NCBI RefSeq assembly: GCF_026914265.1 | Contig: NC_069138.1 | Location: 34,588,598-34,652,597 of the forward strand | Reading direction: 5' to 3' | DNA from: Mya arenaria | Lineage: Eukaryota; Mollusca; Bivalvia; Myida; Myidae | Length of the DNA: 64,000 nucleotides | In this document: in pieces, positions 110 through 38,171 of the stretch | Position numbering within the stretch: the first letter of the stretch is position 1 | Layout: each line of letters starts with the position of its first letter | Notes under the pieces: model-generated | Databases searched by the model: none | What the model saw: only the letters and a program-made list of their open reading frames with translations | Told to the model about the DNA's origin: nothing | Made by a program: the position numbers and the translations under genes

Positions 110-3100
110 ATGTGCATTGTTCTGCCGATTTTTGTATTCGCAATGGTTGTTACCGAGTTTGGAAAAAATGCCTTCATCGAAAAAAGTAAGGTTTTGTTCG
201 CAGTACGAATACTTGCTTTTTGCTCCTTGTTTCTGGATTCACCATTGTGTACTTCATCCGATTCCATCTCATTGATATTCGAATAAATGCATTATGTAAA
301 TCCGACTATAATGCGGCGTACCGCATTTTCCATTGTAAAAGCATTACTTAACTGAGTTTCTCCACGATCTCTTGACTCAAGGCAGAGTAGTTGACCACGA
401 CTCTTCGCCAGTTTTTGGTCAAGACTTTCCATCCGGAGTTGGCCAAGACTATCCAGCAGATGTTAGCCAAGACATTCCGGCAGATGATGGCCAAGAAATT
501 CAGAAAGTATTTAGCCAATACCCAACAACAGTAAATGGTCATGACTTTACACCCGGAGATGGCCGAGACTTTCCGCCAGTTATTGGTCAAGACTTTTCAC
601 CAGGAGATGGCCGAGACTTTCCGCCGGTTGATGTCAAAGACTTTCCGTTAGTTATTGGTCAAGACATTAAAATGGAGGATGAAGAGGCGAATCTATCAAT
701 AATAAACATGGAGAAATCAGTAACAAAGGGTGAGTTGATGTTACATGTCGACGAATACAACGTTCACCATGATTTAAATATGAATGTTGATAGTATTGAC
801 AATAGTTTCAATAAAAACATTCGAAAGTGTGCAATAACATGCTATCTACTTAAAGAAAACAATATAATTGAGAAACAAGTCAATCAGGGTGAGCAAATGT
901 AACATGTATACAACAACCGCGTTCAAAAATACTTTAATACGGAAATATATAGTTTTTACTACTTCTTTTTAAAGTGACACTCTTATTCAAAATCAATACA
1001 TACACATGTGAAACAAACATCATTTTTGACCGATAAACCTTTAACTACTTACTAATTAATGCATTTATGGTAAATATTAATTACTGATAACAAGATTGTA
1101 ACCGTATATGTAATAGCAGAAAGCGCAAAAATATTAAATGATTGGTGAATGCTAAAAGTTTTACTGTGATCTACTATAGTCTCATATGGTAGAAATACCG
1201 TGTTTTATGCTGATTTCTTTCAAATTTATTTCGGTATCCTTCATAAGAACCACTTTTTTCGACATTTATTCATCCTTTTTTGAATATTAAAGCAAAATTA
1301 TTAATTGCGGTAAATCTTACTTGTGAGTAAGAGTGCATCTTTAATGAAGTGGGCTTTTTTGCAATTCCATGCAGTTTACTTAAAGAAAACAATAAATTAA
1401 AGAATATTTTCTTATAAAATCGATTTTGATAACTAAAATTAAAACTGTCTCGTCTCAATAATTATCGTAGTAGTGGAGTGGGGCAAAAAAGGCTGATCAT
1501 TCCAAAGGTATAACTAAAAGCTGACGGTGTAAATCATGCTAGAAATTCAATGTTAATGTTTAAATTGTGGTACGGTTTCATATAAAGAATGATAGTTTGA
1601 AAATATCGAAAAGCATTACAAGAATGCGTTTTGAAATATACAGTTGGCCAAGACCTTACGCCAGATGTTGGCAAAAACTTTACGTCAATTGCTGGACAGA
1701 AAAGGGGGGAGAAAGCTGGGGCTGAGGCTGATCCATCAATTAGAAATATTATAATAAAGAAAAAAAATGGAAAAGGTGAGCTAATGTTACATGTTTACAT
1801 AGGATGCGTTAAGGATGACATAAGTACAAATGTGTATATTTTTATTGATATATTTTGTACCCTGCAATAGCTTGTTCGTATTTAAAGCACATTCTCAGTT
1901 ATAAAGATATAATAAACGGCTAACGGTGTAGATACTTGTAGAAATGAACCGTTAATATTTTATTGTGACACGGTTTGAATAAAAGAAGGATGGTTATTAA
2001 AGATATCGAAAAGAGTATTCAAAGAATTCGATTTTAAAAATATACACAAACTAAGCATATATATTTTAAATACAAACTTAGCAAGGTTTTTCTTCATTCT
2101 AGGCACTCAAGGCAAAGAAACTGAAAAAGTATTTTCGTTAGAAGTCGGTACAGACTATCCGCCAGTTATTGTCAAGAAAAGGGAGGAGACAGTGGCTGAT
2201 CTATCAATACAAAAGATAAATAAAACAGTTCGAAAGGGTTAGTAAATGTCTCATCGTCATGTATACAAATGTTGCTTTCAAGATACTTTAAATACAAAGT
2301 TGGATATTTTCTCTCGCATCTTCCAATTATACATTTAGTTGACTGCAATTGTACGTTGCAATTTTAAGGAATTCAAAGTAATAAAGATATAACTAAAGGC
2401 TAGGTGTAAACAAATGTAGAAATGAACTGTTAATATTTCATTATGACACGGTTTGAATAAAAGAATGACGGTCATTGAAAATATCGAAAAAGATTAATAT
2501 TCGAAGAAATCGTTTTTAAAATATGCCCATATTAAACAAATATAATTTTATATAATATCTTAGTAAAGTTTTTCTCCGTTCTATGCACTCAAGGCAAAGA
2601 AATCAAAAAAGATTTTCCGTCAGTAGATGGTCAGGACTATTCGCCAATTGTTGACAAAGACATTACGCCAGTTCTTGGCAAGAAAATGGGGGAGAAAGAG
2701 GCTGAACCATCAATTCAAAATATAGATAAAAGAGTTCGAAAGGGTGAGTAAATGTAACATGGTCATGTATACAAAAGTTGCTTTCAAGATGCTTTAAATA
2801 CAAATGTCTTTAATATTCCTCTTGCATCTGTTATTAATATATTTTGTTCCATGCAACTGCATGCCACATATGTAAATAACAATATCAGTTACAAAGATAT
2901 AACTAAAGGCTAATGGTGTTAATGAGTGTAGAAATGAACAGTAATTTTTTAAAATTTTATTATGACACGGTTTGAAAAAAAGGAAGATGGTTATGGAAAA
3001 TATAGAAAAGATTATTCAAATAATTCATATTTAGAAATAGGCACACAATAAACAAATATATAATTTATATAATATCTTAGTTAAGTTTTTCTTCGTTCTA

Positions 3101-6100
3101 GGCACTCAAGGCAAAGAAATTGAAAACAAATTTCCGTCAGTAGTTGGTCAGGTCTATTCGCCAATTGTTGGCAAAGACATTACGCCAGTTGTTGGCAAGA
3201 AAATGGAGGAGAAAGAGGTTGATCTATCAATAATGAAGATAGATAAAGAAGTTCGAAAGGGTAAGGAAATTTTACATGTATACAAAGAAGGCGTTCAGTA
3301 TGATTAAATTACAAATGTTGATATATATTTTGAGTCTTTAATGGATACCTCTAGTTTTCTGTAACTGCGCATTGCATATTTAAAGAACATTGCAAACTAA
3401 AAAACATCATTTCCAAATAAAACAAGGTGTTTTAAAAGTAAACTGAAGACCGTCTCGTCCGAATTTTAATCGAATATCAATCCATCATATGCATCATGCA
3501 TCAAAGTATACCTTAGGTGTTTGGTAAAAAAAGTAAATACGCATGTATTGTTACGCATTTTAACAATGAATACCTGGCATGTGATGAAATAGTAAATACT
3601 TCTCAGGTCGCTCAAAATTGAGACGACACATTTTGAAAGGTGTGACTTACTTCAATGATATAATGAATAAAATACAAGTAATATAGCCATACAAACGTGT
3701 TTTCTAGACTTTACCGCGCGAGGCCTGAACAAGATTCGCGACTTGGGTCGGTACGATCTGCTGGATCAGCAGGGATGTAAGAAGCGACTCCCGGAAGCAT
3801 TAATCATTGGTAAGATACGAAACGTTGGGTGACCACATTGTGCACATAACATACATTTCTTAGGTATGGAAATGGTAATTATTCGGTCCATTTATTGCTG
3901 TTTTCCACACATTAGCATTAATTTCTTACACATGGGCCTCTACCAACGACTGTCAGGAATCATGATTTGTGAATCGTCTCGTGTTGAACGATAAATACTG
4001 ATCATAAACGACTCGTCTTGAACAAGATGGCAATGCTCCTCGAGATTTTCCCAAAACTACAACATTACTACATGTATATTGAAAACTTGTACCACGAATT
4101 TGAGGATGGGAGTGGCGTGGTACTCCCCTCGAGGTTGTATGTTCTAGCGCTACCATGGATACATTTTCTTGACCCCTCAAAAAAGGCATGAGTGCGGGTT
4201 TCTACCCAGGAAACGGTCTCGCGATTCATATCAGCTAAAGCTTCACCCAGTGTCGAGCTTAAAAAATAAGTATTAACTAAGTAATAGCTAGACATGAAGT
4301 TAAATATCAATGATAAAGAATGTGTGGAGAGAATGTAGCGAAAAGCCCTAATCATCTCAATCATTTGTACATTATTTAGTTCATCTTTCTGTATTAAATT
4401 ACAACCTCATCGGCAGATACATTGTCAACGCAAAATTAGACACAGGGAGTGTGTGATGCATTAGTAGCAGTAGTCGGACTTTTAAACCCTACGCGAAAGT
4501 TTAAATTCTTCATGATTCTGGTACTTAATGATTGTCTAGCTACAATTTCATTGGTTTAAAATGGAAGTTGTAGTAGTATATAAGCTAGTACCATGAATCA
4601 CCGTTTTTGAGAACATTAACTGAATATCATTAAAGGTTACAATAATCATAACAATGGCTCATTTGAGTGATCCACATTTTGAGTGAAGTTGCCATGGCCC
4701 TACAGGTTTATTATACAATGTATCTCAAGTTTTTGGTGTTTATTGTACATTCTGGTCTGAAACGTACAACTGAAGGGATCATTAAGGTTACAAAGTGGCG
4801 TAATACACCCTTTTCTGAGCCACATTCAACGAGAAAACGAGGATTTATTTTACCTACACATGGTGTTGTCGGGTTTTCATTGTATAATGTATTGTATAAA
4901 TACCTTTACTACTGCTTTAACCTTAAGAATTCGTGAAGGTGGCAAATTGTTGCTCAACACCCGAAATTAGACCATACTTATTATCGCAGTACATTTTAAA
5001 CGAGTTATCGATGTTTAACTGTATGCCAACAATCGCACATTGTTCCACTTTAGGAATCATGAAGGGTGGTACAGAGGCGTTCTCAACATTTCTCGCACTG
5101 AACACAAAGGTGGCCATGTCATTGAACACTGCAACTACGATGTTTTTCACATCAAACTATAATCGAGGCCCGTCATGGTACAGAGACCAGATGGTGTGCA
5201 GCACTGGAGATCAGGTTGGTCGTTTCGAATTTTAAAGTTTGTTACTATATCTATTAAGTTGTTGTTGTTCTTACTTTTTGATATAAATTTAAAATAAGAA
5301 AATAAGAGTGGTAATACTTGAACAAATTTTTTGATGCCGATAATGAAGTGTTATTATTTTAAAGAATATAATCGTAAAGAAAATGAAACTGTTTGTAGGT
5401 AAAGCGTAGGTTAAACTTGTTTCATGTGTCTTTGAGAAACTAACATGACCGATTGTATGTGATCTTATCTTAGATAACCATCGAGAAAGCTCCCCAGTAT
5501 ATGCCCGCACCTTCGGCTCCAATGCGCGTGTACAGGATGAACCCAGACATGAAACTGATTGTCCTGGTACGGGATCCTATTGCACGTGCAGTGTCACATT
5601 ATCTTCAGGTGTGTACATTATGTAATGTTTCTTATAATCCTGATACCTCGATCAAGCGTACATATGCATATAGAGCATCTAATTAGCACATTTTAATATG
5701 AACCTTTTTGGGATGCAGCCGTTCCCATCCTAATTGAATTATAAAAAGAAATTGGACAAAAAATGGCGGCCATGTTTGACGCCATCTTGAAAGGCCCCAT
5801 CATTTCTAATTGCAACATGTGTTTTTCTTAAGTTCAGCTAATTACGATATTATAGTTTGAGCATATATACCAACCGGTTTATGTCGGAAACAGGCCAAAA
5901 GCCCCCGTCCGTTTGGAGCATGATAAAAGTTCCACTATTTTCAGATACTATGTCATCACACTTTAATTCAAATTCCTCCACTTTATATCATGTATTTGAA
6001 TATCATGCAGATGCAGCACGCACATCCTGGCCTAATTGGAGGTAGATCATTCGAGCAGCACGTTTTTGATGCGAACGGCAACGTAAATGGTCAATCACCG

Positions 6101-6844
6101 TTTATAGAACTATCCAGGTTTGCGGATTTAAAATGTCTTTTCTTATTACAACGAAAACTATAAATACACATGGAAAACAAACAATTTCGTAAATTAACCG
6201 ATGTCATAATAGTGATAATGCAATACGCATATAAATACCGTTGCTGACTTGATAGCTATGTCATTCGAAAGCAAGAATAATCACAAACAACTATTTGAAG
6301 GTCATAGATTCCGTCAAATGAAAGCAAGTTGAAACTAAACGGCACTGGCATTTAACGGCAAGCAGTGACATTAAACGAATACATTAAGAATGGTCGAGGC
6401 CTGTTTTTAGTTGAGGCGGTTAAATATTTTATACGTAATGATTAGAACATATAGAAGAGGAAACAGAATTGATATTAGAATACAACTATAGATTTATATT
6501 AAAGGTACGCATCGCTGCTCCAAAACTGGCTTGAATACTTCCACAAGAAGCAAATCCATATCGTCGATGGAGACAGATTCAAAGATCACCAGGTTGAGGT
6601 GTTAGCGGAGACTGAAGACTTTCTAGGAATAGAACGCCAGATCACGGCAGATAGGTTTATATTTAACGAGGAGAAGGGGTTTTACTGTTTGAAATCCCTT
6701 CAGGGAGACGAGATATGCTTGGGGGACGGAAAAGGGAGGACCCACCCCCCTCTTAAAAGTTCAGACTATCATAAATTAAGGGAATATTTTAGACCATATA
6801 ATGAGAGATTCTTTCAGCAATTTGATAAACGGTATAATTGGTGA
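110..6844 (+). CDS. HS3ST-like membrane sulfotransferase, copy 1 (11 coding exons)
   Basis: The product resembles heparan-sulfate glucosamine 3-O-sulfotransferases, Golgi type II enzymes that use PAPS. Exons: 110-185, 382-729, 1644-1775, 2112-2237, 2594-2743, 3111-3260, 3708-3809, 5054-5214, 5474-5608, 6011-6117, 6505-6844. They sum to 1827 nt, 608 codons plus stop, with all phases matching. The start is the Met in ASMCIVLPIFVFAMVV, because the same frame has stops just upstream; a TTGCAG acceptor at 58-63 suggests an earlier 5' exon. Order: signal anchor (about residues 1-20), octapeptide stem (to about 327), then the sulfotransferase domain with KRLPEALIIGIMKGGT (5' PAPS loop), EKAPQY, LVRDPIARAVSHY (3' PAPS site) and the two-Cys loop GFYCL...CLGDGKGRTHP. 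The family's catalytic EVHFFD is replaced by TTMFFT. Family assignment is strong by motif memory; activity and substrate are unknown. Confidence 0.88.
382..3260 (+). repeat. Five tandem symmetric stem exons of HS3ST-like copy 1
   Basis: Exons at 382-729, 1644-1775, 2112-2237, 2594-2743 and 3111-3260 are 348, 132, 126, 150 and 150 nt. All are multiples of three and all start and end in phase 1. Four begin after the same ACTCAAG acceptor, and most end in a conserved ATCAAT...AAAG segment followed by a GTGAG-type donor. The introns between them also match: a block reading like TATGACACGGTTTGAATAAA then GGTCATTGAAAATATCG recurs after each exon. Exon plus intron was therefore duplicated, with spacing of about 470-520 bp. 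The third exon has a weaker GTTAGT donor. Because every exon is symmetric, any of them could be skipped without a frame change; alternative splicing is inference. Confidence 0.85.
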
Positions 6845-8180
6845 TTGAATGGATCCGTTTAGTGATAAAACGATTATCGAGTACAATCGATAAATCGTCG
6901 CTGACAATGTAATGTCGGCGAAAATCGATAGTGGTTGTCCAAAATCGATGTCGCTAATGTTACTTCCGGTATTTACGTATCTTTTTGTAATGCGGTAACG
7001 GCTTACATGTACTTGATGCGGTTTGCATCATTTTGAATCTGATAAATGTGTTTTGTTGTAATGTTCGTTCGTGAAGTTATTAAAGTCATTACAAGTCCAT
7101 GGACATTTATTAACTGCTTCGATAAGCAAGACTATAGTATCACACTTAAGGACTCCAGGTTAAACTATTTAAATGATCATGATGATACTATATATAAGAA
7201 TGTATTCCCAAATTATATTATGAACTTTCGATTATGGCCCGATAGTAAATCGAATTGCTTCGTCCGATTCGATTCGATTATCGATAGCAATTGGAGTCCG
7301 ATTTTCAAACACCATATCCGTTGTATTACGATGTATAAATGAGCTTTTCATTTCACATTTATGCGATACCGTTACACAGGTTACGGTTGATGTCTGGAAA
7401 CAAACCCATTTAAACCTCCGCATGTCCAGAGCTTTTCTTTGATACATCCTCGATTATTTCGGGAGGTTTTACGAGAAATACGCATAGATCCGAAGTCAAT
7501 AGGTTATTACATTAATTACAATAGGAATCCACGTATCAACAGTCGAGGCTCAGTGGTGGCTATGGGGGTGATTTGATGTTTGGCTTCTTTATGCACTGAC
7601 GTTTAAAGTTATGTTCATATTATTATCGCTCACTTACATATATTTCTTTGTCATTCTTTGTCATTCATGTAATATATAGATAGATAACAATTTCATTAAA
7701 CGACTTAAATGCAATTAAATATCATTCGTATCTCTAAACCTGCTATTTACCCTAAAAGAACTCGCATCTTTCAGAAGAGAATTTTGTATAAAGCCACCAG
7801 GTTATTTGGCTGTGAATAATGCTCAACACGTAAAAAATGTAAAACAAACGTGTGTAAAGGAATTATTGCTTGGTTGTTATCGAAAAGATTAAATAACTTG
7901 TCATATTTGAGATATGGACGCATTTTGAATGGATATTTTTGAACTTGAGACTCTTGTCTTCTTTGAGTATGTACAGTTCATAAATGTTAACATCATTTTT
8001 TACACTTATATGGTATTTCTTTCATATGCATTGTATTCAAGTTTTCGTTGTATCCTCCTTGATATGTGTTAAATGGAAGAAATGTTCACAGCGTAGTTCC
8101 AAAAGAGTATCGGATTATGTTAAGATATGTGACAAATAGTTCATGTGCTTTTTGTTAAACACTTGCATGAAAAAATACTC
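6845..8180. other. 3' flank of HS3ST-like copy 1, no gene seen
   Basis: AT-rich sequence after the stop codon. Short frames here have no recognisable domain, no family motif and no supporting splice pattern. It includes simple GATTCGATTCGATT runs near 7250-7280. I see no RNA gene. Confidence 0.6.
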
Positions 8181-8490
8181 ATGCAATTGCATCAGATTTA
8201 TAGCATATGTATGATAAAATAATCCGTAAAATTGCATCAGATTAATAGCATATGTATGATAAAATAATCCGTAAAATTGCATCAGATTTATAGCATATGT
8301 ATGATAAAATAATCCGTAAAATTGCATCAGATGTATAGCATATGAATGCTAAAATAGTCATTAAAATTGCATCAGATTTATAGCATATGAATGCTAAAAT
8401 AGTCATTAAAATTGCATCAGATTTATAGCATATGAATGCTAAAATAGTCATTAAAATTGCATCAGATTTATAGCATATGTATGAAAAAAT
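8181..8490. repeat. 45-bp minisatellite, about 6.5 copies
   Basis: The unit reads AAAATTGCATCAGATTTATA then GCATATGTATGATAAAATAATCCGT. Two subtypes occur: early units carry TATGATAAAATAATCCG, later units carry AATGCTAAAATAGTCATT. The subtypes are blocked rather than interspersed, which suggests stepwise amplification. As 45 is divisible by three the array stays open on the minus strand, but this is not coding. Confidence 0.95.
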
Positions 8491-8743
8491 TAAACTTAAC
8501 TTCTTATTAAATCAACATGTGTTTCGTCCCACGATTACATGATTGAATCGGGAAGGCATCATTGTACTAACAGAACAGATATAATTTGTACTTATTGCAA
8601 CATGAATGTCATTGAAAATGAATATCATTCCCTTCTAGTATGTTCCAAGTATAATAATTTAAGGGAAGAAAACTTTAAATCTTAGTTCTCCCATTGCTCT
8701 ACAAAAATCATTACTGACATGTCATCAGATTCTAGAATAATAA

Positions 8744-8889
8744 TATCTGTCATGTGTTCCCTTCCGGATAGAAAAATCCGACCCGAGGGCACCTGGGTTG
8801 CCAGGTAACGAGGCTTGTCGAGTTACCGGCTACGCAGCGTGCCCGAAGGTCGGATTTTTCTATCCGGAACGGGAACACATGATAGATAT
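8744..8889. mobile_element. Foldback MITE with about 48-bp arms
   Basis: The left arm ATCTGTCATGTGTTCCCTTC continues through CGGATAGAAAAATCCGACC to GAGGGCAC. The right arm is its near-perfect reverse complement. The centre (about 50 bp) contains GGTAAC and GTTACC, so a second, inner stem is possible. The whole unit could fold into one hairpin. It has no coding capacity and looks like a non-autonomous DNA transposon. The superfamily is not resolved because I cannot fix a clear target-site duplication. Confidence 0.8.
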
Positions 8890-9320
8890 ATTTTCTAGCA
8901 TACCTTAAATTCTATTTTTGGTGAAGAAAATGTATAATAAAACTCATTTTTGTTCATTCACCAATAAGCGCGTGCGATGATGTTTACTGACGTCATGACG
9001 CGCAGTAATTTGTATTCACTGCATACGTCAATAAGTTCCTTCGATATCAAGTCTTTTAAGGGTTATTTTGTTTTGTTATGAAGATACATTTTTGTAAAGT
9101 TAATGTTTATGGTACTCATCTATTGAAAACATTTTTGTAAAGTTAATGTTTATGGTACTCATTTATTGAAAACTCATAATTATGGTTACTTAAAATATAT
9201 AATAAAAGAAATAAAAAGTATTACGTCACAGCGCGTGACTCATCTGGCATGGGGGATGCCTGGATGGAATTTTCCAGCACGGCTGACGTCGCCTATCCGG
9301 TGTGCTAGAAAACCTTATCA
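8890..9320. repeat. Possible TIR element with internal 49-bp duplication
   Basis: TTTTCTAGCATACC near 8891 is matched in inverted orientation by GGTGTGCTAGAAAA near 9299-9313, suggesting a roughly 420-bp inverted-repeat element directly abutting the foldback MITE. Inside it, the segment CATTTTTGTAAAGTTAATGT and following bases to TATTGAAAAC occurs twice in tandem at about 9086-9173. The boundaries are tentative. Confidence 0.45.
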
Positions 9321-11200
9321 AAACAAAAGTATATTAATATACGCATTTATTTGAAGATAACGAACCATATAAGATGGTAATAACTGACATTTTACTCATA
9401 TGTTTGAAAATATGCAAAATGTCCCTATTGACCATGTTTCAGCTTTTTGCGACAATGTGATGTATACTCTATGTTTGGTATGAATGTTGTTAACATTTAA
9501 TGCTGATTTTTTATGTATGCTTGTATGTATGTATAAGTGTATATTCGTACAATACTGTTTTGGAAATAAATATAAATAATGCATTGGTTCTTTTTAATCC
9601 GTAAGCGGTGTTTTTCGATTTGGTAAATCTATAGCCATTTAATACAAGATGATATGGGCTGAAACAAACCTGTTCTCATTATTGGAAATAAGACAAAAGA
9701 CAATCTCATGAAAATGTAAAATCCCAAGTACATTGGTCGTATTGTTAATTTTGTTGATTGAATTGGATTGAAATTTGTATTTTTAAAGTGTGTTTGAGAA
9801 ACCTTTGAAAATTAGAATACTAAAATGTGTATTGAAGATACTTTGAGCTGGATTTTGACTCTAAATTATGCTATAAATAGAATCTCAAATCCGTGTTGAT
9901 TTAATTGACCGCGCTCATATGTTAAACATGGTTGATTTTGTATGGGTATCAGGATGTTTCGCACCCAATTATACTGTTAATATTCTTCTACTTCGTTCAT
10001 TCTTTTTCTAAATCTAAAAATAAACTCCATCTGTACAAATTGTATTGAAATGTATTTTGTTGCCTTTGGCACTATGTAAGATTAACTCATATAAAACTTT
10101 AGTCATTATAAAGTTATTTTAGGAGAATATATTTAGTTTGTTTCCTTACCTTAAGGACCCCATATTAAAAAGAAAGGTAGGTGAAGATTTCATCACTGAT
10201 GTTCGATCTTAGATACGATCTCAATTATTGTTTTGTAAGCATTGTCAACAGCTATGTATAATTTTCAATATTACATGCACACACCCTGCAGCTATTTTAT
10301 AGTTTATTAATAATTCATTTTAATTATTCTTAACATGGTTTGTACATGAATTTATATATTCATAACACAAATATGCCTTGTAGTGGACTATTTAGAACGT
10401 GGTAAGTATAATGTACTATCTGGCGGGGTTGTAGTCCCAAAAGAGTTGAATATAGGATATTTACCAGTACAGGGAGGTTTAAATATATGTTTAAAACTGT
10501 TTTATGTATATGTACACTTGTTTTGGATCTGTTTTGGATCCTTTAAATGTATTGTTTTAGTTTTTGCTGGGCGGACACGAAGGTATTGATTGAGTGTATC
10601 TGAACTGATTAAAATAGAAGTGTATGACCTCGAGCCTTAACATGAATGCAGAGGGCGACACAATCGCGAAACCTGTGTGTAAATATAATAATATGGTGTA
10701 ATATACTGCCAAAATCAGAGGGGAAATCAATTTTGTATCAAAGAAGGTCAAGCCAAAGAAAATTCTTTGGACCCCAAAATAGGTTAAATATTTTAGAGTG
10801 GCCATGTGCTTATGGTGCCTATTTATCGGGTCATCATGGAACTTATTTAAAATGATTGTCCTTATGAATCTTCATCAAGTTAAATATGAGTTACAAAATA
10901 GGTAATAATGTCACTCAAACAAATAACTTAAGATGATGATAACGCAGCAACACAATATCATAGCGTGTGTAGTGCCGAGCATACTACACATTGAACAGTA
11001 TATTCCTTTTATGATAATCTCTAAGTCTGGTGCTTCCTTATCGAACAATTCCTATGAAGTCAGTAGAGACAATCAATACTCCTGAAATTGACGGCAAAAT
11101 AATACCTAGATGTTTTCATGTCAATTTGAACATTGTCAGTTCATGTTTGGCCGCTCTGCAGTTCGTATAGACCGTGATGAAAATTTGTGCCAAGTTATTT
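9321..11200. other. Spacer between the two HS3ST-like genes
   Basis: About 1.9 kb of AT-rich DNA. No exon or RNA gene is recognised. A short segment near 10795-10830 (AGAGTGGCCATGTG, TTATGGTGCCTAT) recurs at about 13873-13900 inside an intron of copy 2, so it is an interspersed repeat fragment. The promoter and any 5' noncoding exon of copy 2 should lie in its distal part. Confidence 0.5.
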
Positions 11201-11360
11201 TAGTATGCAATGGTTTGAGGACACTCTGATAATATTGCAAATCAACACTTTATACTCGTATACAGGACGCATTCAAAGACCAAATGTTTTCGATAAATGG
11301 TATTGCCCTTGCAGCTTCAACGATGTGAAATGCCTTGCCTACAAACAGTTCCTGACTAGC

Positions 11361-14300
11361 ATGTGCATAGTTGTGGCAATTTTCGTGTTCGCCGTGACTG
11401 TTACAAATTTTGAAAAAAGTGGCATCTTTGAACAAAGTAAGATTTTGATTGTAGTAAGTATATTTTCTTTATTGTTGTAGGCACAGACACAAAATAATGT
11501 GCAAAAATGCGCCGGGAAAATAGTGCAAAAAAGGAGATCATCCCAAAGAAAAGAATAGATATGATTTGTGTCACATTCATTTGTAAATGGAAGTATTTTT
11601 TGCATTTTATTGTCTATTTAAATAATATCTGGAAAAACTCCACTGCCTTGTTAAATAGTAAATGTTTGTTTGATTCGATTAATTTATTTATAAAGAATAT
11701 ACTAAAAGATACATAGATTGGTTATATAATAACTTGTAATATAAAAACTATTTTCTCGTCGTTCTATTTGATCAAGGTGAAGTAGTTGGCCAAGACTCTC
11801 CTCCTGTAGTTAGTCATGACTTTCGACCAGATGTTGACCAAGATGTTTACTCAGTTCCTGGGCAAGAAATCCCGCCAGTTGTTGGTAAAGACTTTTCTAC
11901 AGTAGTTGGCTTTGACTTTACGCAAGACCAAGACGTTCAGCCAGTTTTTGTCCAAGATAATGGTGAACATGAACTGTTTATATTTTTTTATGACACGGCT
12001 TAAAGCTGCACTCTCACAGAATGAATGTTTTTTTGTTGTCTTGGAACGATCCAATTATGCGAAAATACATGGAAACCAGGATTATAAGACTGCTGAAGAA
12101 AAATCAGATCGCAGATTTTCATATTTAAGTTCAAAAATTGATCTTCATGCATTTTTCTTAAACCATTAGTAACGCTTTTATCCATATAACATTAATTTTT
12201 GAACGAAAATATAAAAATCTGCGATCTGATCTTTTGTCAGCAGTCTTTTATCACTGGTTTGCAGATATTTACGCAAAAAATGTTTCTTTACAAACAAAAC
12301 AAAAATAAAAAAAGTTTGTTAATGCAGTCAATTTGTGAGAGTGAAGCTTTAATAAAACAATTGATGGTCATTGAAAATATCGAAATGATTACCATTCAGA
12401 GAAGGCGTTTTTGTTTTTTTTAAATTTAAACAAATTAAACTTATAATTATTTTTTAATATCATAACAAACCAGTTCTTATATTTTCTCTTTCTTGTGGCT
12501 CAAAGTGTAGAAGATATTCATGACTTTCCGCCAGGCCAAAGCTTTTTGCAAGATGTTGGCCATGACTTTACGCAAGTTGTTGACCAAGACGTTCTGCCAG
12601 ATGTTGGCCAAGACTTTCCGTCAGCTGTTGTCCAAGACTTTCCGTCAGATGTTGGCCAAGACTTTCTGCCAGATGCTGTTCAAAACATTACGCCAGATGT
12701 TGGCCAAGACATTCCGTCAGATGTTGACCAAGACTTTCCGTCAGTTGTTGGCCAAGACTTTCCGTCAGATTTTGGCCAAGACTTTCCGTCAGAAGTTGTC
12801 CAAGACTTTCCGTCAGATGTTAGCCAAGACTTTCCGCAAGATGTTGACCAAAATTTTACGCAAGTTGTTGGTCAGAAAACAGAGAAGGAAGAGGCTGATA
12901 TATCAATAAAACAGATAAAGAAAAACGTTGGCCAAGCATTCCCGTCAGTTGTTGTTGAACGAAAACGGGAGAAGGACGAGACCGATCAGTCAATAGTAAA
13001 GATAGAGAAAAGGGTCAGAAAGGGTGAGCAAATGTTACATATGTACAAATACAGCGTTCATATTGATTTAGATACACATATGGATAGTTTTATCTCTGAT
13101 GAATACACGCGGCTGTATGCAATGTCATATTGTCAACATGTGTGCGGGAAACCCGATCAGTCAGTGAAACACATTGCTAGACCAATAATTCTCACATGAT
13201 TGTTAAATTAAGGTATGTCTTTTTAAATACTCTGAAACGCATGTATTGCTTCTGGGACGCTAAAATTGAGACGACCTTATCTTAAATATATCAGATTGGT
13301 ATATAGTTTCAAAACCAACAATTTGTATTCCATATTCACATGTTTTCCAGACTTTACCCAACGAGGCCTAGATAAGATACAAGACTTAGGTCGGTACGAT
13401 CTTCTGGAGAAGCGGGGATGTAAGAAGCGGCTCCCGCATGCATTAATCATTGGTAAGATATAAGGGGACGTGGTGACCACGTCGTGCACATATATTTATT
13501 CTCACAATTGTGGAAGTTTTGAATAACATTTCGATATATTGCTGTTCATCACTTATATTTGCATTTATTTCGAACCCAGAAGAGACTAAATTCTGCCTAT
13601 CAGGAATCAGGAATTGTGACAAAGATGCGTTATCTACGACATCTTCTTTAACATTAAGGTTTTGTTGTTTATTGTATTCCTAATTATCGCTGATAAATTA
13701 TACATTTCATGCTAAAAAGTCAACATCTACCATTTAGGTACAATAGATGTTGGCATAGATGCATTGTTCTAGTGTCCTTTCTTTAACAAGATGTCCACTC
13801 AGCTTTCGTAAAAAGTGAATTGTTACTACATGTACAATATATATGAACCACTAGTACCACAAATGCAAAGGTTAGAGTGGCCATGTGGTTATGGTGCCTA
13901 TCATGATAGTACATAGCACCACGAATCAGCGCTGTTGGACTATTAATACAATCAATAACATCTACTGCACATCATTAACAATTATCAATGTTTTATTGTA
14001 CATTGTAGACTTACATGTATCACTTCGAGGATCACGATGGTGACAAAGTGGCGTACTGCACCAGTCAATTGTACCCCCAGGGTCCTGGGGCACCCCCCCC
14101 CCATCCCCATCAGGTCCTGGGGTATACCGGGGGAGGCGGGGGAAATGATTGTGTATCTACCTTCCAGGTTGACCCGCAGTGCCGATCAGTGACTGCGGTG
14201 TTTTTGTTTCCGCGCATAAAATAGCGTGGAATGGGCATTACCTATAATGTCCCCGGGATTCGGGGGCATTTGGCGGGGATTTTACCAGCAGTTTGTCTTC

Positions 14301-17300
14301 GCAGGGCGGAGATTTTACCTGGGAATGGCTGGTCCGTAAGTCAAAGTCCCCGCTATTTCCTAGACCTGGGGGCCTTGGGTACAATTGACTGGTGCAAAAT
14401 ACACATAATCCTTCTTTAACGAGCCATATCACTCGAGAACCGTTGGGTTTATTGTACATGATACACCAATAACTGTATATAACTGTGTACTACTGTCGAA
14501 CTCTGTTGGCTCTAAATCGCATGGCTCGATTTCCTCGTTGGCTCGAACTGGATGTAAAGGACCGATTTCTACATACTGGAGACAAGCATTCCCGGTTGGC
14601 TCGAATCTTCCGAGGCTCGAGGTACCTATTTTCGCCTGTCCCTGTGAGTTCGAACCAACGAGGTTCGACTGAATTACCAGCTGCTTTTACCATTGTGGAA
14701 TCGTGAAGAGTAACAACTTGGCAATTAACACACAAAGTTAGCCATGTGACTCGAGTTATCGCAATACATGTTCCTCGAGGTATCCCTTCACAACTGTATA
14801 CAAGCAAATAGCTCTTGAATCATTTCAGGAATAATGAAGGGTGGCACAGAGGCGTTCTCAACATTTCTTGCACTGAATACTAAGGTGGCAATGTCCTTAA
14901 ACGCTAGAACCACATGGTATTTCACGTCAAACTATCATCGAGGCCCTGCATGGTACAGAGACCAGATGTTGTGTAGCACTGCAGATCAGGTGTGTACGTC
15001 CCCTTTGACTATAAAAGTTTGTACATTTAAAGATAGTTCTGATAAAACTAAATAAAATGCATGGTAGACGGCGGTCTTTGTTACCTTTCCCTATTCGTAT
15101 TGTTATTGTTTGAATGAGTATGACCGTAAGCGCAATTCAACTGGCTGTAGTTAATATGTACTTGTCTGAACTATATAATATGACTTTATTAGTCGGCGCA
15201 GAAGGACGCGGACTATATTTGATATTACTTTAGATATATTCCAACTAAGGGACTAGTTCATAAATTGCAGAACAATGCTTTCAATACTTTCCAGGTTGCA
15301 TGATAAAATATGAAGTTTAGTATGTTTTATAAAACTGCACACTTTAATTGATAATAAAACCATAAATTATAATGCCCTGCTTATCATTTTGAAAATTTTA
15401 TTTTAAAGGGGCTGTCTCAGGTATGATAAAATAGCGAGAGAAAAAGAAAATTGTCGAAAACTGACATAAACTTGGCATCGATGTGTGCAATGCATTGAAA
15501 CTTACAAACTGAAGTACCACATAGTTTACAATTTATTTAAGTTTAGCAGTTATTTCGTATTTTTCCATTAAAAAAGATTACTGGTTATGTCTACCAGGTA
15601 GAAACCATTTATTATGCGTGATTGGCTAGTCGCTGTTATCACGTGATATTACCGAGGTAGGCGTATAGCTTAATTATGTCCATCAATGAGATTAAGCCTT
15701 TGTAGCTCAATGAGAAAGACGCATGATTTCAATTTCGGCGACGCGGGTTCGAACCCGGTCTCCGACACAATTTTTTTTATTACATTCTGGTACTTTTTTT
15801 TACAATTATGATATCAAAGCGTAACACATTCTATTAGATAATTGTCCTGAGATTCGTTACAGAAAAAAACTTTTTTTTTTGGTGCCAATCTGTGACACTG
15901 TCTCTTTAAATATCAACTCAATCATAACAACTCGGCCAAATCCGAGATAGATACAGGCCGAGGTGTTCCGATTAATACCAACTTTCGCAAAAAAGATGAA
16001 GGTTACACGGTACTATTACAATATACTTTATGTTTGTAAACCTCCTACGCAGTTATCTCCCTTGGCGACAGCAAAAATGCCGAGTTTTGAAATATGAACT
16101 TTGAGCTGAATTGTTCGTTTTGAAAATGTCATTCTAAGGAATTAACACCAGATAATTCCCTCTTGGTGTATAGTATCACTCATATGAGTGAAATGTGTTA
16201 CAAAAAAACTTATACAATATATAAAGCAAGGAATTCACATAACATGCCGGTACAAATAAAAGGTGAATTTTATGCTATTAAAATATATGTATTAGACCAT
16301 TGACTCTATTTCTTCCGAAGAAACGTATGTGTATTTTTGGTATAATTTAGTTTTAACCAGAGGATTATCTTGAGGAAAAAAACAGACTATATATAATTCC
16401 GGGCTTAAACTATTGGATAGCAATTTTATTAACCATAATGTCCTTCGAGCATATGTACACCCAACATTGGTTATCTGCATGCACGTTTTTCTTCTAATTT
16501 CATTGCGCCGACTTGATGCTATTCATCAACTTTTTTCTTGTCTTTTCTTAGATAACTATCGAGAAAGCTCCCCAGTACATGCCCGCACCTTCGGCACCAT
16601 TGCGTGTGTACAGGATGAACCCAGACATGAAACTAATTGTCCTGGTACGGGATCCTATTGCACGTGCAGTGTCACATTATCTTCAGGTTAGTGGATTTAT
16701 TCTTATAACTCGATAAAGCAGCGTAAAACTTAATAAAAATACTGGTACGTATCAAATATCAGCACTTTGTTCCAATCTTTATTAAAATATTGAATGTAAT
16801 CGCAAACATGTACTTCTACATTGCAAATTGGTGGCCACGTTTGATTCCAAACAGACGTATACGTGTAAAATTAAATTAAAGAACCTTTTTAAAATATGGA
16901 AAATGAACTTTATAAATTGCCTGCTTATGTGGCACGAAATCTCGCGCAGTTGAAGGCGTCACATTAATCTCCCCACGAGTCATTTTCGCTGACGTCACGT
17001 ACGTCGTGTTATGTATATTTTCCAGATGCAACAGGCAAATCCTAATAAACTAAGAGGTCACACATTGGAGCAGCATCTGTTCCACCCAGACGGCAGCGTT
17101 AATAGCGAATCACCATTGATATCACGCTCCAGGTTTGCTTATAATATTTATAGATCAAGAATTTCACAACTTAATTTGCTAAACATTGTGTACGGTCAAA
17201 CAGAGCCTACCAAAGCACATTTTTCACAAAAATTGTCTTATATATTTGTCTGAAGCATTTCAAACATTTTGAAGTACTTGTGACTATTTACATAGTGTCG

Positions 17301-18132
17301 TTGCTCATTCGTCCGTATGTTCTTCTGTATTACAGTAACTGTATTATCTACTTGGCTAGGCGTTCGGTTGACTTTTACTCTCTTTCATATATTTCTTTAT
17401 ATATTATTGACAGTAGGACAGGTATAAAACACTAGAAGGGCAAGTTATATTCTAGAATGACATTTTTCGCAAGGTTCCCTTTAAGTCCGTTTCAAAATTC
17501 TTTGATAAAACAAAACAAAAAAATGTAATTGTGGTGAAAAATGTACTTCGGTTCGTGATAAGTCCTATTGAGCTCATTATTAACAAACGTTTGTGAATAG
17601 CTTGATAATATTTTATAGTTTTCGGTAAAATATTGAATATTGTCAGTGAAATAACAGCAGTGAATAACAGCAGTGAAAATATCACTGCAAACTATGAAGT
17701 GAACTTAACAACTTTTAAGCATCAATTGTAGTTACTTACCTTTGATAAAAACTGAAGGTAATTTAATTAAAAGATATAAATATATATTACAGGTATGCAT
17801 CGATGCTTCGCTATTGGCTTGAATACTTTGACAAAAAGCAAATCCTGATTGTCGATGGAGACAGGTTCAGGGACCACCAAGTCGATGTGTTAGCGGAGAC
17901 TGAAGACTTTCTAGGAATAGAACACCAGATCACAGCAGATAGGTTTATATTCAACAAGGAGAAGGGTTTTTACTGTTTGAAATCCCTTCAGGGGGAGGAG
18001 ATTTGCCTTGGGAGCGGGAAGGGCAGGACCCACCCCACTCTTAAAGATTCAGACTATCGTAAACTTAGGGAATATTTTAGACCACATAATGAGAAGTTCT
18101 TTCAGCAATTTAATAAACGGTATAATTGGTGA
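11361..18132 (+). CDS. HS3ST-like membrane sulfotransferase, copy 2 (8 coding exons)
   Basis: Tandem paralogue of the gene at 110-6844. Exons: 11361-11436, 11777-11962, 12511-13023, 13351-13452, 14829-14989, 16552-16686, 17026-17132, 17793-18132. They total 1620 nt, 539 codons plus stop, all in frame. The last five exons have exactly the same lengths as in copy 1 (102, 161, 135, 107, 340 nt). Order: signal anchor MCIVVAIFVFAVTVTNF, a stem of about 230 residues dominated by octapeptides, then a sulfotransferase domain with ALIIGIMKGGT, EKAPQY, LVRDPIARAVSHY and GFYCL...CLGSGKGRTHP. The EVHFFD motif of active HS3STs reads TTWYFT. The start was chosen by analogy with copy 1; the frame is open further upstream here, so a longer N-terminus or extra 5' exon is possible. 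It probably sits in the Golgi membrane; activity is unknown. Confidence 0.88.
12000..12352. mobile_element. TTAA-flanked MITE (family A), copy 1
   Basis: Begins TTAAAGCTGCACTCTCACAG and ends with the inverted match TGTGAGAGTGAAGCTTTAA. It is inserted in the intron between the two stem exons of HS3ST-like copy 2, splitting the intron block TATGACACGG / GGTCATTGAAAATATCG that is continuous in copy 1 introns. The interior carries paired segments such as ATCAGATCGCAGATTTTCAT and ATAAAAATCTGCGATCTGAT. TTAA on both sides fits a piggyBac-like target choice. Confidence 0.85.
12511..13023 (+). repeat. Octapeptide (24-bp) coding repeat in copy 2 stem exon
   Basis: Within this 513-nt symmetric exon, about 14-15 units of eight residues follow one another, typified by GQDFPSDV, VQDFPSDV, SQDFPQDV and DQNFTQVV. 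At DNA level the unit is 24 bp, GTTGGCCAAGACTTTCCGTC plus AGAT. Q and D at unit positions 2 and 3 and the hydrophobic at 4 are the most constant. After the array comes a charged tail with QSIVKIEKRVRKG, which matches the 3' ends of the copy 1 stem exons. A rigid or extended acidic stalk is an inference. Confidence 0.93.
14057..14396. mobile_element. MITE with 20-bp perfect terminal inverted repeats
   Basis: The left end TGCACCAGTCAATTGTACCC is matched exactly in inverse orientation by the right end GGGTACAATTGACTGGTGCA. The interior is GC-rich with paired CCCAGGTCCTGGGG / GGGGATTC blocks, unlike the surrounding AT-rich intron. No ORF of note. It lies in the intron before the first sulfotransferase-core exon of copy 2. 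A clear target duplication is not visible. Confidence 0.85.
14490..14720. repeat. Interspersed repeat with TTGGCTCGA motifs
   Basis: TTGGCTC, GGCTCGATTTCC and AACTGGATGT..AAGGACCGAT occur here. A diverged version lies at about 26175-26300 in a FATP intron (GCTTGGCTCGATTTCCGTAT, AACTGGATGTTAAGAACCGAT). This identifies a dispersed family but not its class; ends were not resolved. Confidence 0.55.
15403..15909. mobile_element. TTAA-flanked 507-bp element with tRNA-like core
   Basis: Left end TTAAAGGGGCTGTCTCAG; the right end reads, in inverse orientation, TTAAAGAGACAGTGTCACAG. TTAA is present on both sides. The termini are similar but imperfect. The interior holds the tRNA-like segment described separately and several T-runs. 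The arrangement (inverted termini outside, RNA polymerase III-like head inside) is unlike an ordinary SINE. It could be a DNA-transposon-derived element that captured a tRNA or SINE. It lies in the intron before the 16552 exon of HS3ST-like copy 2. Confidence 0.6.
15695..15768 (+). ncRNA. tRNA-like sequence (A and B boxes), probably tRNA-derived repeat
   Basis: TGTAGCTCAATGAG resembles an A box and CGGGTTCGAACCCG is a near-perfect B box / T-loop, about 45 bp apart, with a TTTTTTTT run just downstream. However the first seven bases do not pair with the last seven, and neither the D arm nor the anticodon arm forms convincingly. I therefore call it tRNA-derived rather than a working tRNA gene. 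No anticodon is assigned. Confidence 0.55.
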
Positions 18133-25200: not shown

Positions 25201-28200
25201 GTAACAATCCTGCCCACCAATTCCCCTGGCTCACCTGGTTGGGGTATAACATTATTGAGTAAAAATGGACGGTTACAATATGATGAGTAGGGATTAAAAA
25301 GCTTTCTAAAACCATAATCAATCATCAGAAATATCAGTCAAGCCGATCCAATCAATTTTTTGGCTTAGCATTTAAGATCGAAACTTGATAAAAAACATTA
25401 ACTTTGTGGTATAACAGAAACACAAGCTGTATTTTTACATTTTGTTCTCAAGTGTGCTGGAAAAGTAAACAAGGATGTAAATTCCTTTGCTTGATTTGCT
25501 TTAAGCTGGATGCAAAATGAATTATAATTGTCTTCAATTTTTTACATTTTTTTTTAGAATACCAACACATAGCAAGAACCGATTTCGAGATTCTGCAATT
25601 GATTATCGGCAACCTTAGTCTTAAAAGATTGATTTTCGACAATACTTAATCATCATATTATTCCTGACTAGGATAATTTGTTAGATTATAATCACTCCTT
25701 CAATTACTACCACACTTAAATTTGCTTCTTGGCAGACTTGATATTATCATTTGTTTCCCCTGCCTTAAATCTGAGTCAGTTGGAACATGTACTGCACTCA
25801 CTCTCCCCTTCTTTATCAATTAGATTTTAGAAAATATGTTTTAACTATTACATAGTGCAAGCTGCGACTCAACCATGTATAGGTAACATAATACCTGTTT
25901 TACTAGTAAATTTAAATGTTGAATGACCATAAAAATAACCACTCTTATTTAAAAAAAATTAATTAAATAATAAATAATGTAAAAGATTTGCACAATTTGC
26001 ACATTCATCGACAGAAAGTGGTTCAAATATAACTGTTTCAATATACTCCAACAATTAAAACTCAAAAATACCTTGCTTACTTAGTAAGCCTATTTTTATG
26101 AGACTTAAACTATAAACAAAATTAATATGAAGTACAAGAAAATAAAGAAGATGTATGATACAGTCTAAACATGTTGGCTTGATATTGCTTGGCTCGATTT
26201 CCGTATTGGCTCAAACTGGATGTTAAGAACCGATCTTATTTTGGTCTTTGAAAGCATTCTTGCTTGACTCGATAATAGCTAGAATCCAATCATTTGGTCA
26301 GGTATATCGAGCAAACAGGTGTTGATTGTATGTAGATTGTACTTACCAGGCTTTGCTTTAACACACACCCCATTCCTATCACGAATGATCTTATTTTCAC
26401 TGTCGACCTTGATTAAGGTCACAGGGTACATGAATGGCGCTATCACTGATGTAAACCCACACGCTCCTATAGTGTTGTCAAAGTTAACTGCAATAAGAAG
26501 TGCATAAATTGTTAATATCAAAAACATTAAATGAAACCCAATGATGTGGGCATAGGTGTTTTATAACCTCATTCCATACCAAAAGTTAATATTTTTTATT
26601 CAATCACAGCAAAGAATGTTTTTTTTTTGTGATTATGTTTTTTTTTTGTGATTATTCTTTTTTTTGTGACATGCAGGTTTTTAAATGTATTCAAGATTTT
26701 TCCTAGATTTTCCTGGGCATTGTTTTTGCTGAGTCTAATGCACGCTCACAACCAAAAGACACATGAATACATTAAAAACTTAAAACAGTGTATTCAATTG
26801 GTGTCTTAATGATTGCCAAACAAAATCTGTTACATGGTTCACAAAACCTTAATTGGCACAAATATTCTTTCTGACATCTATGTGCCTAATACAGGGCATT
26901 ATTATGACACACAGGACAAATTTGTCTCTCCAAATATATATCTCCAAAAAATTCATATTCCCTGCCTTCATGCATCCAGTCTTCCTGACGTGGATAAACA
27001 TTCAGTGTATATTGAATGAAATATTAACGACTATAATATTTCTATCCACTGAGTTTGTTGTTCTGGTGATAAATAGTTTCAGGTGTTAAATACCAGTCAA
27101 AACTATCTCACAATTTTGCAGGAAATTCACCAGCAATGTCCTGTTGCCAGACAGGTTTCACTTACACTTCACTGACATTCATAAAGATACAAGTATTCTT
27201 TCCCTTTTTACCATAGAACATTCAAAGTATTTACATGTGGACACTGAGTTTCTACATGCATGTTATGATCAACTAGGATGAGGGATACAAAACATACAAA
27301 TAAAGCATAACTCACTAATATTACAGTTGCCCTCGGTAGCTCCGTAGAACTCTCCCATGATGTTGACGCCAAACCTTGCCTGGAAGTCCTCCCACAACCC
27401 TGGCTGAAGTCCGTTACCGAACATGACCCGTACCCGGTGCTGTTTATCTGCCAGCTTGACCGGCTGGGCGATAAGGTACCGGCATATTTCACCAATGTAC
27501 TGGGCAGCCTGAAAATGAAAATAAATGCTGATCAACAATTAACTTTAAACTACCATAAATGCCATTTTTATTGTTCTATACAGCATTGCGTTAACATGAT
27601 TTCAATTAACCATTAACATATTCAGTAGTCGAAATTAGCATAAGCCTTCACTAGTAAAATGCTTTTGGCTTGCTCAAAGTCTGTTATTTGTATTAGCAGG
27701 GAATCTGACCATTGTTTATGCCAAACATTAGTGTAAGAATTCGGATTTGTTCTTTCAAAAGTCTTATTTTAATGACTGAAATAGGTGAGAACTTTAATGC
27801 TTAACACCTTAAAGGATATAATATATTACAGAAATATGGGTAAATGAGTATTCAATCTCAACAGATTAAAAAGCAAATGGAAATGATATAGCTTTAAACT
27901 TTAAAGTCCATAAATCTACATATTTACAACAATCTAGATATTGCCCACATACTGTGCAATTATACTGGATGCAATCATCCCAGAACCTGCTGGCGGAGAA
28001 TTTTTTCTTGACAACGACGGTGGTTCCCCAGAGAAGAGCTTGGCCTGTACCGATAATCCCGCCTGCCGTGTGGTAGAGTGGGAGGGCGTTGTACAGCACG
28101 TCCTCTGGGGTGATGCGTAGAAACATGTTGATGGCGCTTGCCATGTAGTAATACCTTAGAAATAGGAAATCCAGCTTACATAACTGATTAAAGAGGACTT

Positions 28201-37100: not shown

Positions 37101-38171
37101 CCAGATGGCGGCAGATGAACATCCGAGTCATCGAGACACTGTCCAACCAAGTGAGTTGTCATCAAAACGAAAATGCTCGGATCGCAAGTTGCCCGTTTAA
37201 AGGAGATCCCCCCATTACCGCGTTAGCTAAATGTACTTGTATTTAAACCAGTCTGAGTAAATATTATATTCTATAACTTACGTTGGAAATATAAATGCTT
37301 AGAAGCTAAATGAAAACTTGAAATTTCATGTTACATGTAGTTGGTTTGTATAATTTCACAACCTACTTGAGTTTTATTTTATTGCATCTCCATCTTTGTC
37401 TTGGTGCCGATATAAAAAAGCTTAAGGCTACGTAGCGGTTCAATGGCCTAATTTATGATCGGGATAATAGGGATATAAATGTCAGATATTCTTTAAACTA
37501 GGCATTTGATGTCAGTTTGTTGGTTTGCAAACCGTTAGACTCTGTATTTTTTCAATAAAATGTTTCCCGTTACAGCCACACAGGAAGTCAATCAAATACT
37601 CGACACAGACCGGAAGTCGTGCGCCAGGTGGCTCTGTGTCGTGTGCAAACGAGGCTTCAACTCCCGTAGCAATCTGCGCTCGCACATGCGCATTCACACG
37701 CACGAGCGGCCGTTCACGTGCAAGTACTGCGCGCGCAAGTTCAGTCAGTCTTCAACGCTCAGAAATCACATTAGACTACATACAGGTAAACTCAAAGAAA
37801 ACATTTAGATTTGTTATAAAATATACTTTAACTTACACATGCCTCAAAAAAGAAATAGGTACTCGTAAAAATGGTTGTATCTGACTAGGAATAATTAGAA
37901 TTAACAATTCTTCCATCTGACAAATTTCAAACACCACCAACCTTGCAATGTGAACTTTTCTTCTGACCACTACACGTAAGCATTGCTGGAAGCTACGTTA
38001 GTTTTACTAGTTTTACTACTTATCTGATATTAAATGAATTTTACAATTTCAGGTGAGAAGCCATACACGTGCGTCACGTGCCGAAGTTCATACTCCCAGC
38101 TGGCCGGTCTGCGCGCGCACCAGCGTAGCTCCGCCCACAGACCAGGGAAAAACAAACACATCGTCGTTTAA
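34143..38171 (+). CDS. PRDM12: PRDM12-like PR-domain zinc-finger regulator
   Basis: A nuclear transcriptional regulator; vertebrate PRDM12 directs sensory (nociceptor) and spinal neuron identity and acts with the methyltransferase G9a. Six exons: 34143-34239, 35536-35714, 35993-36145, 37015-37150, 37576-37785, 38053-38171. They total 894 nt, 297 aa, all in frame. N-terminal [10 protein letters not shown] corresponds to the conserved PRDM12 N-terminus. The PR/SET-like domain (about residues 35-165) has [34 protein letters not shown] and ELLVWYG. Three C2H2 fingers follow: C209/C212/H225/H229, C237/C240/H253/H257, C265/C268/H281/H287, with [28 protein letters not shown] and [11 protein letters not shown] nearly as in vertebrates. 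The protein ends ten residues after finger 3, so the long poly-Ala/Pro tail of vertebrate PRDM12 is absent. Confidence 0.95.
35322..35431. mobile_element. TTAA MITE (family A), right-end fragment
   Basis: ATCATTGGTTTGCAGATATT, TTTCCAAGACAAAAAATAA and TCTGTGAGAGTGCAGCTTTAA match the right half of the full copies. The left half is missing. It lies in PRDM12-like intron 1, just after a G-rich run at 35248-35262. Confidence 0.8.

Follow-up and report, generated by a model that had tools for sequence, protein, structure and literature searches.

We analyzed a 64,000-nucleotide stretch of the genome of the bivalve Mya arenaria (the window; contig NC_069138.1, C17:34588598-34652597, in an assembly of 1.216 Gb and 18 contigs), which holds two neighboring genes related to the heparan sulfate 3-O-sulfotransferases (HS3STs). 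Together with a third tandem copy just upstream of the window (L022, C17:34579146-34582249), these two genes (copy 1 and copy 2) form a cluster of HS3ST-like genes in which the residues of the site for the sulfate donor 3'-phosphoadenosine-5'-phosphosulfate (PAPS) are kept and the catalytic base is missing, and this state is conserved in all three copies. The cluster genes are under clear purifying selection. They are probably not standard 3-O-sulfotransferases, and standard heparan sulfate 3-O-sulfation appears to have been lost. The third copy, as well as a charge reversal at a further active-site position (Arg166 to Glu), goes beyond the original prediction, which was made on the window and dealt with copies 1 and 2.

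Active-site residues of the cluster genes

Residues are numbered here as in HS3ST3A1 (PMC8341778). The best solved relatives found by phmmer were HS3ST3A1 (E 2.7e-54, residues 18-281) and HS3ST1 (E 1.4e-53), both over the domain, and the Pfam family PF00685 (Sulfotransfer_1) was matched at 71.8 and 74.4 bits, against a gathering cut-off of 22. Like HS3ST3A1 and HS3ST1, which they resemble over the whole domain, the clam genes have kept five of nine active-site residues in all three copies (Lys162, Lys215, Gln255, Lys368 and Arg370), the first of these in a complete 5' PAPS loop (Lys162-G-G-T), as well as both cysteines of the two-Cys loop. Unlike them, they have replaced the other four: Arg166, Glu184, His186 and Asp189.

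The equivalent of Glu184 is Thr in the three copies, that of His186 is Met, Met and Trp, and that of Asp189 is Thr. The active-site loop reads TTMFFT in copy 1 and L022 and TTWYFT in copy 2, with no acidic residue in any of them. From the Glu that follows GGT up to the D of YRDQM, no Glu or Asp was found in any of the three copies; since this whole stretch is free of acidic residues, the loss of the catalytic Glu does not depend on the alignment register. In HMMER pairwise alignments, the register of the loop was offset by two residues in two HS3ST1 chains relative to HS3ST3A1, and Thr faced Glu in both. The original prediction had described the replacement of Glu, His and Asp in both window copies, by Thr, by Met or Trp and by Thr, next to PAPS-site residues and a two-Cys loop that were kept. 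All of this was confirmed, including the exons, phases and motifs of the GGT exons that carry the two altered loops.

The fourth replacement lies directly after GGT, where every copy carries Glu in place of the substrate-contacting Arg166, reversing the charge. In HS3ST3, Arg166 is described as making a bidentate contact with the carboxylate of the uronic acid beside the acceptor, a carboxylate that may also touch Lys215 and Lys368, and Arg166, His186 and Asp189 are counted as important for activity (PMC8341778). As evidence that would count against it, the original prediction had named a Glu conserved at some other active-site position. Half of such evidence was found, as position 166 is now Glu throughout the cluster; the other half, a role of Glu166 as base, is hypothetical.

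Glu is named as the base for HS3ST1 and for the N-sulfotransferase (NST) domain in PMC11625862, and the E86A and K119A mutants of human HS3ST1 serve as catalytically inactive forms in PMC9789671. Counted on the HS3ST1 sequence, E86 and K119 lie 33 residues apart, so they correspond to Glu184 and Lys215. Because E86A is used as an inactive enzyme, ordinary 3-O-sulfation by the cluster proteins is unlikely. Loss of the basic cleft was also considered as a signature. It was not used, since human HS3ST1 and HS3ST3A1 are themselves not alike at positions 173, 190, 259 and 260.

Gene models

In our splice models, the 11 exons of copy 1 span 110-6844 on the forward strand (1836 nt coding, 611 amino acids), and the 8 exons of copy 2 span 11361-18132 on the same strand (1620 nt coding, 539 amino acids). 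The frames over 1.6-1.8 kb of coding sequence, which the original prediction had called intact, contain no internal stop. At the N-terminus of each predicted protein is a short hydrophobic segment; a stalk of acidic repeats follows, and then a sulfotransferase domain encoded by five exons. The proteins probably face the secretory lumen. The features, in window coordinates, are the following.

110..185 (+): copy 1 exon 1, encoding the start Met (provisional) and a hydrophobic stretch, either anchor or signal (splice model; blastn/tblastn homology with the copy 2 exon)
391..3260 (+): copy 1 stalk, partly acidic VGQDFP-type repeats, provisional exon set (GT-AG, constant phase)
391-729, 1644-1775, 2103-2237, 2594-2743, 3102-3260 (+): the five copy 1 stalk exons (splice model)
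3708..3809 (+): copy 1 exon 7, start of the sulfotransferase domain, KRLPEALIIG (homology, splice model)
5054..5214 (+): copy 1 exon 8, the GGT exon, with the 5' PAPS loop KGGT followed by the altered loop (alignment)
5074-5076 (+): copy 1 Glu codon directly after GGT (alignment)
5134-5151 (+): copy 1 TTMFFT, in place of E-x-H-F-F-D (alignment)
5474..5608 (+): copy 1 exon 9, EKAPQY with the Lys215 equivalent, and RDP...SHYLQ with the 3' phosphate site and the Gln255 equivalent (alignment)
6011..6117 (+): copy 1 exon 10, fast-changing segment (46% amino acid identity with copy 2)
6505..6844 (+): copy 1 exon 11, C-terminal part with the two-Cys loop, KGRTHP (Lys368 and Arg370 equivalents) and the stop codon (alignment, splice model)
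11361..11436 (+): copy 2 exon 1, encoding the start Met (provisional) and a hydrophobic stretch (splice model)
11777..13023 (+): copy 2 stalk, two exons at 11777-11962 and 12511-13023 (splice model, repeats)
13351..13452 (+): copy 2 exon 4, start of the sulfotransferase domain (alignment, splice model)
14829..14989 (+): copy 2 exon 5, the GGT exon, with KGGT and then Glu at 14849-14851 (alignment)
14909-14926 (+): copy 2 altered loop TTWYFT (alignment)
16552..16686 (+): copy 2 exon 6, EKAPQY and RDP...SHYLQ (95.6% nucleotide identity with copy 1)
17026..17132 (+): copy 2 exon 7, fast-changing segment (exon comparison)
17793..18132 (+): copy 2 exon 8, two-Cys loop, KGRTHP and stop codon (alignment, splice model)

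All 17 introns of the two models are GT-AG; this regularity is partly built in, because exon edges were picked at GT and AG dinucleotides guided by homology and open frame. The open frames and the constant phase (every stalk exon is phase 1-1) do not follow from this choice. The start Met is provisional in both genes: homology runs further upstream, yet copy 1 carries stops there. It is extremely unlikely that the loss of Glu is an alignment or gene-model error, with the true Glu loop exon lying elsewhere or being alternatively spliced. Both models are predictions from the DNA sequence, which leaves some room for such an error. Against it, the loop exon starts at KGGT and, in each of the three copies, joins both neighboring exons in phase, and a six-frame genome search with the N-terminal half of the protein listed, inside the cluster, only the known exons.

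The stalks are encoded by 24-bp repeats (8 amino acids, DVGQDFPS- or VGQDFPSD-like), found at 395-665 in copy 1 and at 12551-12871 in copy 2. The stalk is split over five phase 1-1 exons in the copy 1 model and lies mostly in one long exon in copy 2.

L022 has the same five domain exons as the window copies, with an open frame over the domain, TTMFFT and Glu166. No further domain match was found in the approximately 10 kb fetched on each side of the cluster (L021, L046). Thus, the cluster appears to consist of three genes.

Comparison with the other HS3ST-like loci of the genome

A genome search with the last exon gave at least 44 matches at 43 loci (two matches are pieces of L045), and the top three were copy 1, L022 and copy 2. 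We compared 39 loci, namely the three cluster genes and 36 others, including L016 and L037, whose matches span two frames. Four loci were left out as broken or incomplete: in L045 the Glu motif is visible, in L043 and L044 stops interrupt the motif stretch, and L038 is unaligned there. The family is large, with groups of loci on C2, C7, C9 and C17 and broken copies such as L043 and L044.

Position 184 is Glu in 34 of the 39 loci, Thr in the three cluster genes only, and Gln in L008 and L009. With so many loci keeping Glu, its loss is unusual and more than a chance observation. The other two residues of the motif behave differently. His186 is present in 10 of the 36 non-cluster loci and absent from 26, 24 of which keep Glu; Asp189 is present in 13 and absent from 23, 21 of which keep Glu. 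Loss of His and Asp is therefore weak evidence, because most paralogues that keep Glu have lost them too. Of the three replacements described in the original prediction, that of Glu is unusual, and those of His and Asp are not specific to these genes. At position 166, Arg is found in 23 of the 36 non-cluster loci and another residue in 13 (11 of them with Glu184); none has Glu.

The departure of the cluster extends beyond the motif. Across the 38 rows outside the cluster (36 clam, 2 human), 32 alignment columns are fixed at a level of 90% or more. The cluster genes agree with 25 of these columns and depart at the other seven (175, 176, 184, 204, 220, 246 and 319). Seven departures at fixed columns look like a shift in function and not like one chance hit.

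A second genome search used the N-terminal half and gave 62 matches. Its top-ranked matches included the cluster genes and the pair with Gln, and none of the strong matches listed pointed to an additional member at a position not already known; weak matches such as C2:34478259 were listed as well. Viral contigs, scanned once, gave 4 pattern matches and no relatives.

L008 (C6:48690417) and L009 (C6:49337597) are a nearly identical pair, possibly through recent duplication or as an assembly duplicate. Their domain lies in one open frame. Gln replaces the catalytic Glu, Lys215 is changed to Arg, and the Arg of RDP to Cys, so that the pair represents another kind of Glu-less gene in this family.

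Selection on the cluster genes

The ratio of nonsynonymous to synonymous substitution rates (dN/dS) was computed for the three pairs of cluster genes. With the Nei-Gojobori method (NG86) over 281 codons, it was 0.17 for L022 and copy 1, 0.19 for L022 and copy 2, and 0.24 for copies 1 and 2; the corresponding values from the Yang-Nielsen method (YN00) were 0.25, 0.22 and 0.26. Bootstrap 97.5% limits over 261 codons were 0.26, 0.31 and 0.37, and the motif exon by itself (53 codons) gave 0.10-0.16. The value near 1 that would indicate simple pseudogenization, a possibility raised in the original prediction, is well outside this range.

As a control, 19 pairs of Glu-keeping genes at 70-91% identity, which overlap in genes and are thus not independent, gave 0.24-0.51; the cluster genes are 81-89% identical to one another. 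This dN/dS comparison drew on 29 of the 39 rows (26 single contiguous stretches and the three spliced cluster genes), the C2 cluster, L016, L030 and L037 being left out. This range indicates that the Glu-less genes are constrained about as tightly as their Glu-keeping relatives, or more tightly. Pairs below 65% identity had dN/dS of 0.08-0.20, which is equal to the cluster values or below them, at a dS of 1.5-3.9 that is near saturation (one case was not computable). Nearly identical pairs (98-99%) gave 0.15-1.25 from very few changes, with 0.52 for L008 and L009.

It is very unlikely that the cluster genes are decaying duplicates on the way to becoming pseudogenes. The stalk exon of copy 1 at 2594-2743 has apparently lost the AG acceptor of its sister exons and would need the next AG, and broken copies of the family do exist, L043 and L044 carrying stops. 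However, both window genes have open spliced frames and L022 an open domain frame, no bootstrap limit exceeds 0.37, and the PAPS-site residues are kept. On these grounds pseudogenization was rejected.

Constraint is uneven along the domain. The exon with Lys215, RDP and SHYLQ (5474-5608 in copy 1, 16552-16686 in copy 2) has the highest amino acid identity, 93-98% across the copies. Its dS was 0.13-0.17, as against 0.24-0.95 in the other domain exons, in all three pairs, and the similarity ends near the exon edges. Gene conversion and RNA-level constraint are candidate readings of this low dS. The next exon (6011-6117 and 17026-17132) evolves fast, with 46% amino acid identity between copies 1 and 2 compared with 79-98% for the other four.

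Place in the family and closest known systems

In a tree built from the alignment without position 166 and the columns of the motif, the cluster genes formed one group (support 100/100) on a long branch. Their sister in the best tree was the pair L008/L009, with weak support (65/62), and this was flagged as a possible long-branch join. A single loss of Glu in a common ancestor of the cluster and L008/L009, followed by divergence, is possible. The pair shares with the cluster the loss of Glu and a similar motif (FFSSNY compared with FFTSNY), and differs from it by its Arg at position 215, its Cys in RDP and its unspliced domain. In the best tree the cluster lies outside a 13-row group that holds human HS3ST1 and HS3ST3A1; its inclusion in that group was not rejected by the approximately unbiased (AU) test (p 0.41).

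Two other sulfotransferases were compared. SULT4A1 is described as a strongly conserved orphan cytosolic sulfotransferase with no known physiological enzyme activity (PMC11275347). It belongs to another family, keeps its active-site His and, according to the same source, reportedly binds neither PAPS nor 3'-phosphoadenosine-5'-phosphate (PAP) in vitro, whereas the clam genes, judged from sequence alone, keep the PAPS-site residues and lack the base. The N-sulfotransferase domain of NDST1 gives a weaker match, which covers most of the domain (E 5e-27 to 6e-26), with a much lower score than the HS3STs. Its Glu641 lies in the ligand site, but the probable base is given as His716 and not as this Glu (PMC3733922). 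A carbohydrate sulfotransferase, CHSTF, is reported as upregulated in Mya transmissible cancer (PMC11978232), and we do not equate it with the cluster genes.

Possible functions of the cluster proteins

Tentatively, and with not quite even confidence, we regard the cluster proteins as pseudoenzymes with a PAPS/PAP pocket that would act through binding of a ligand or partner and not by sulfating heparan sulfate. The residues that hold PAPS and support transfer in HS3STs are in place, the residue that deprotonates the sugar hydroxyl is lost, and the charge of one substrate-binding residue is reversed; such a protein might act, for example, by occupying the substrate or by pairing with an active paralogue. 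The sequence features of a pseudoenzyme, that is a homologous domain, a lost catalytic residue and retained selection, were all found here, and the loss of four of the nine active-site residues favors a binding pseudoenzyme. Overexpressed inactive forms of HS3ST1 are reported to cut tau uptake further, which their authors discuss as a possible dominant-negative effect, e.g. through sequestration of heparan sulfate (PMC9789671). This suggests that a dead enzyme of the HS3ST fold may still act.

Several observations weigh against a pure binding role. Lys162, Lys215, Gln255, Lys368 and Arg370 are retained without exception, the exon with Lys215, RDP and SHYLQ is the one most conserved in amino acids, and a purely binding protein would not need every transfer residue. 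There is also the new Glu at position 166. Finally, the base is not agreed upon across the superfamily, as the case of His716 in NDST1 illustrates (PMC3733922).

The cluster proteins could instead be active sulfotransferases with a changed acceptor, Glu166 serving as base or positioning a non-uronic, perhaps positively charged, acceptor. We consider this possible, although short of probable. Glu166 is present in all three cluster copies and in none of the 36 other compared loci, and it probably lies in the pocket, given that Arg166 of HS3ST3 grips the uronic acid carboxylate (PMC8341778). The active-site lysines are kept and constraint is strong; the kept lysines and the invariant Glu166 favor a relocated acid. 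On the other hand, the reach of Glu166 to an acceptor hydroxyl is hypothetical, and the 13 other loci without Arg at this position, 11 of them with Glu184, indicate that the site tolerates many residues. The more specific proposal, that the catalytic acid moved from 184 to 166 with loss of the uronic-acid contact, so that bivalves gained a sulfotransferase acting on a new acceptor other than heparan, is rather unlikely.

Activity without an acid at 166 or 184 is quite improbable. Another residue, water or the substrate would then act as base, or the acceptor would itself be nucleophilic, and Thr184 would only hydrogen-bond the acceptor. The PAPS and transfer residues that are kept would fit such activity, as would the related NDST1 domain, whose base is believed to be a His from a different helix (PMC3733922). 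However, the naming of Glu as base for HS3ST1 and the NST domain (PMC11625862) and the use of the HS3ST1 Ala mutant as an inactive form (PMC9789671) argue against it. His252 of SHY was tried as a replacement base. This candidate was weakened by the presence of His at the same place in 3 of the 38 other rows, so it is not an obvious substitute.

Altogether, the evidence for a pseudoenzyme and for a relocated acid is close, and sequence alone cannot decide between them; the pseudoenzyme is slightly favored, ahead of an enzyme that is active on a new acceptor by means of the relocated acid. The original prediction of selection for a non-standard role is partly upheld, in that Glu was lost under strong constraint (dN/dS 0.17-0.24); its two readings, a pseudoenzyme and a changed acceptor, are both candidates.

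Other features of the window

A tandem array with an AT-rich unit of 45 bp (7.2 copies, 93% matches) lies at 8167-8490. By eye, a palindrome-like arm pair around GGATAGAAAAATCCGACC was seen at about 8750-8885, possibly a small inverted-repeat transposon, and a GGGTTCGAACCCGGTCTCCGACAC stretch at about 15690-15770 resembles the head of a short interspersed element derived from transfer RNA (tRNA). ARAGORN found no tRNA genes across the window. On the reverse strand, an open frame of 1155 amino acids at 50293-53760 carries endonuclease and reverse transcriptase domains of the long interspersed element type, an NmrA-like NAD(P)-binding exon lies at 60260-60856, and a weak fragment of an AMP-binding enzyme, below the Pfam cut-off, at 27866-28258. 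A C2H2 zinc-finger exon is found on the forward strand at 37539-37808.

Significance

Sulfotransferase families are defined by PAPS-binding motifs, and where the catalytic base lies does not enter the definition (PMC11625862), so a match to such a family is easily taken for an active enzyme. We found no report of Glu-less HS3ST genes in the open-access literature searched, subscription papers being mostly outside this search. The genes described here would be annotated as HS3ST on the strength of such a match. They have no base at the usual place, and selection nevertheless keeps them in three tandem copies. The cluster is thus a natural test of the HS3ST fold, either as a binder of PAPS or glycans or as a fold that rebuilds its active site.

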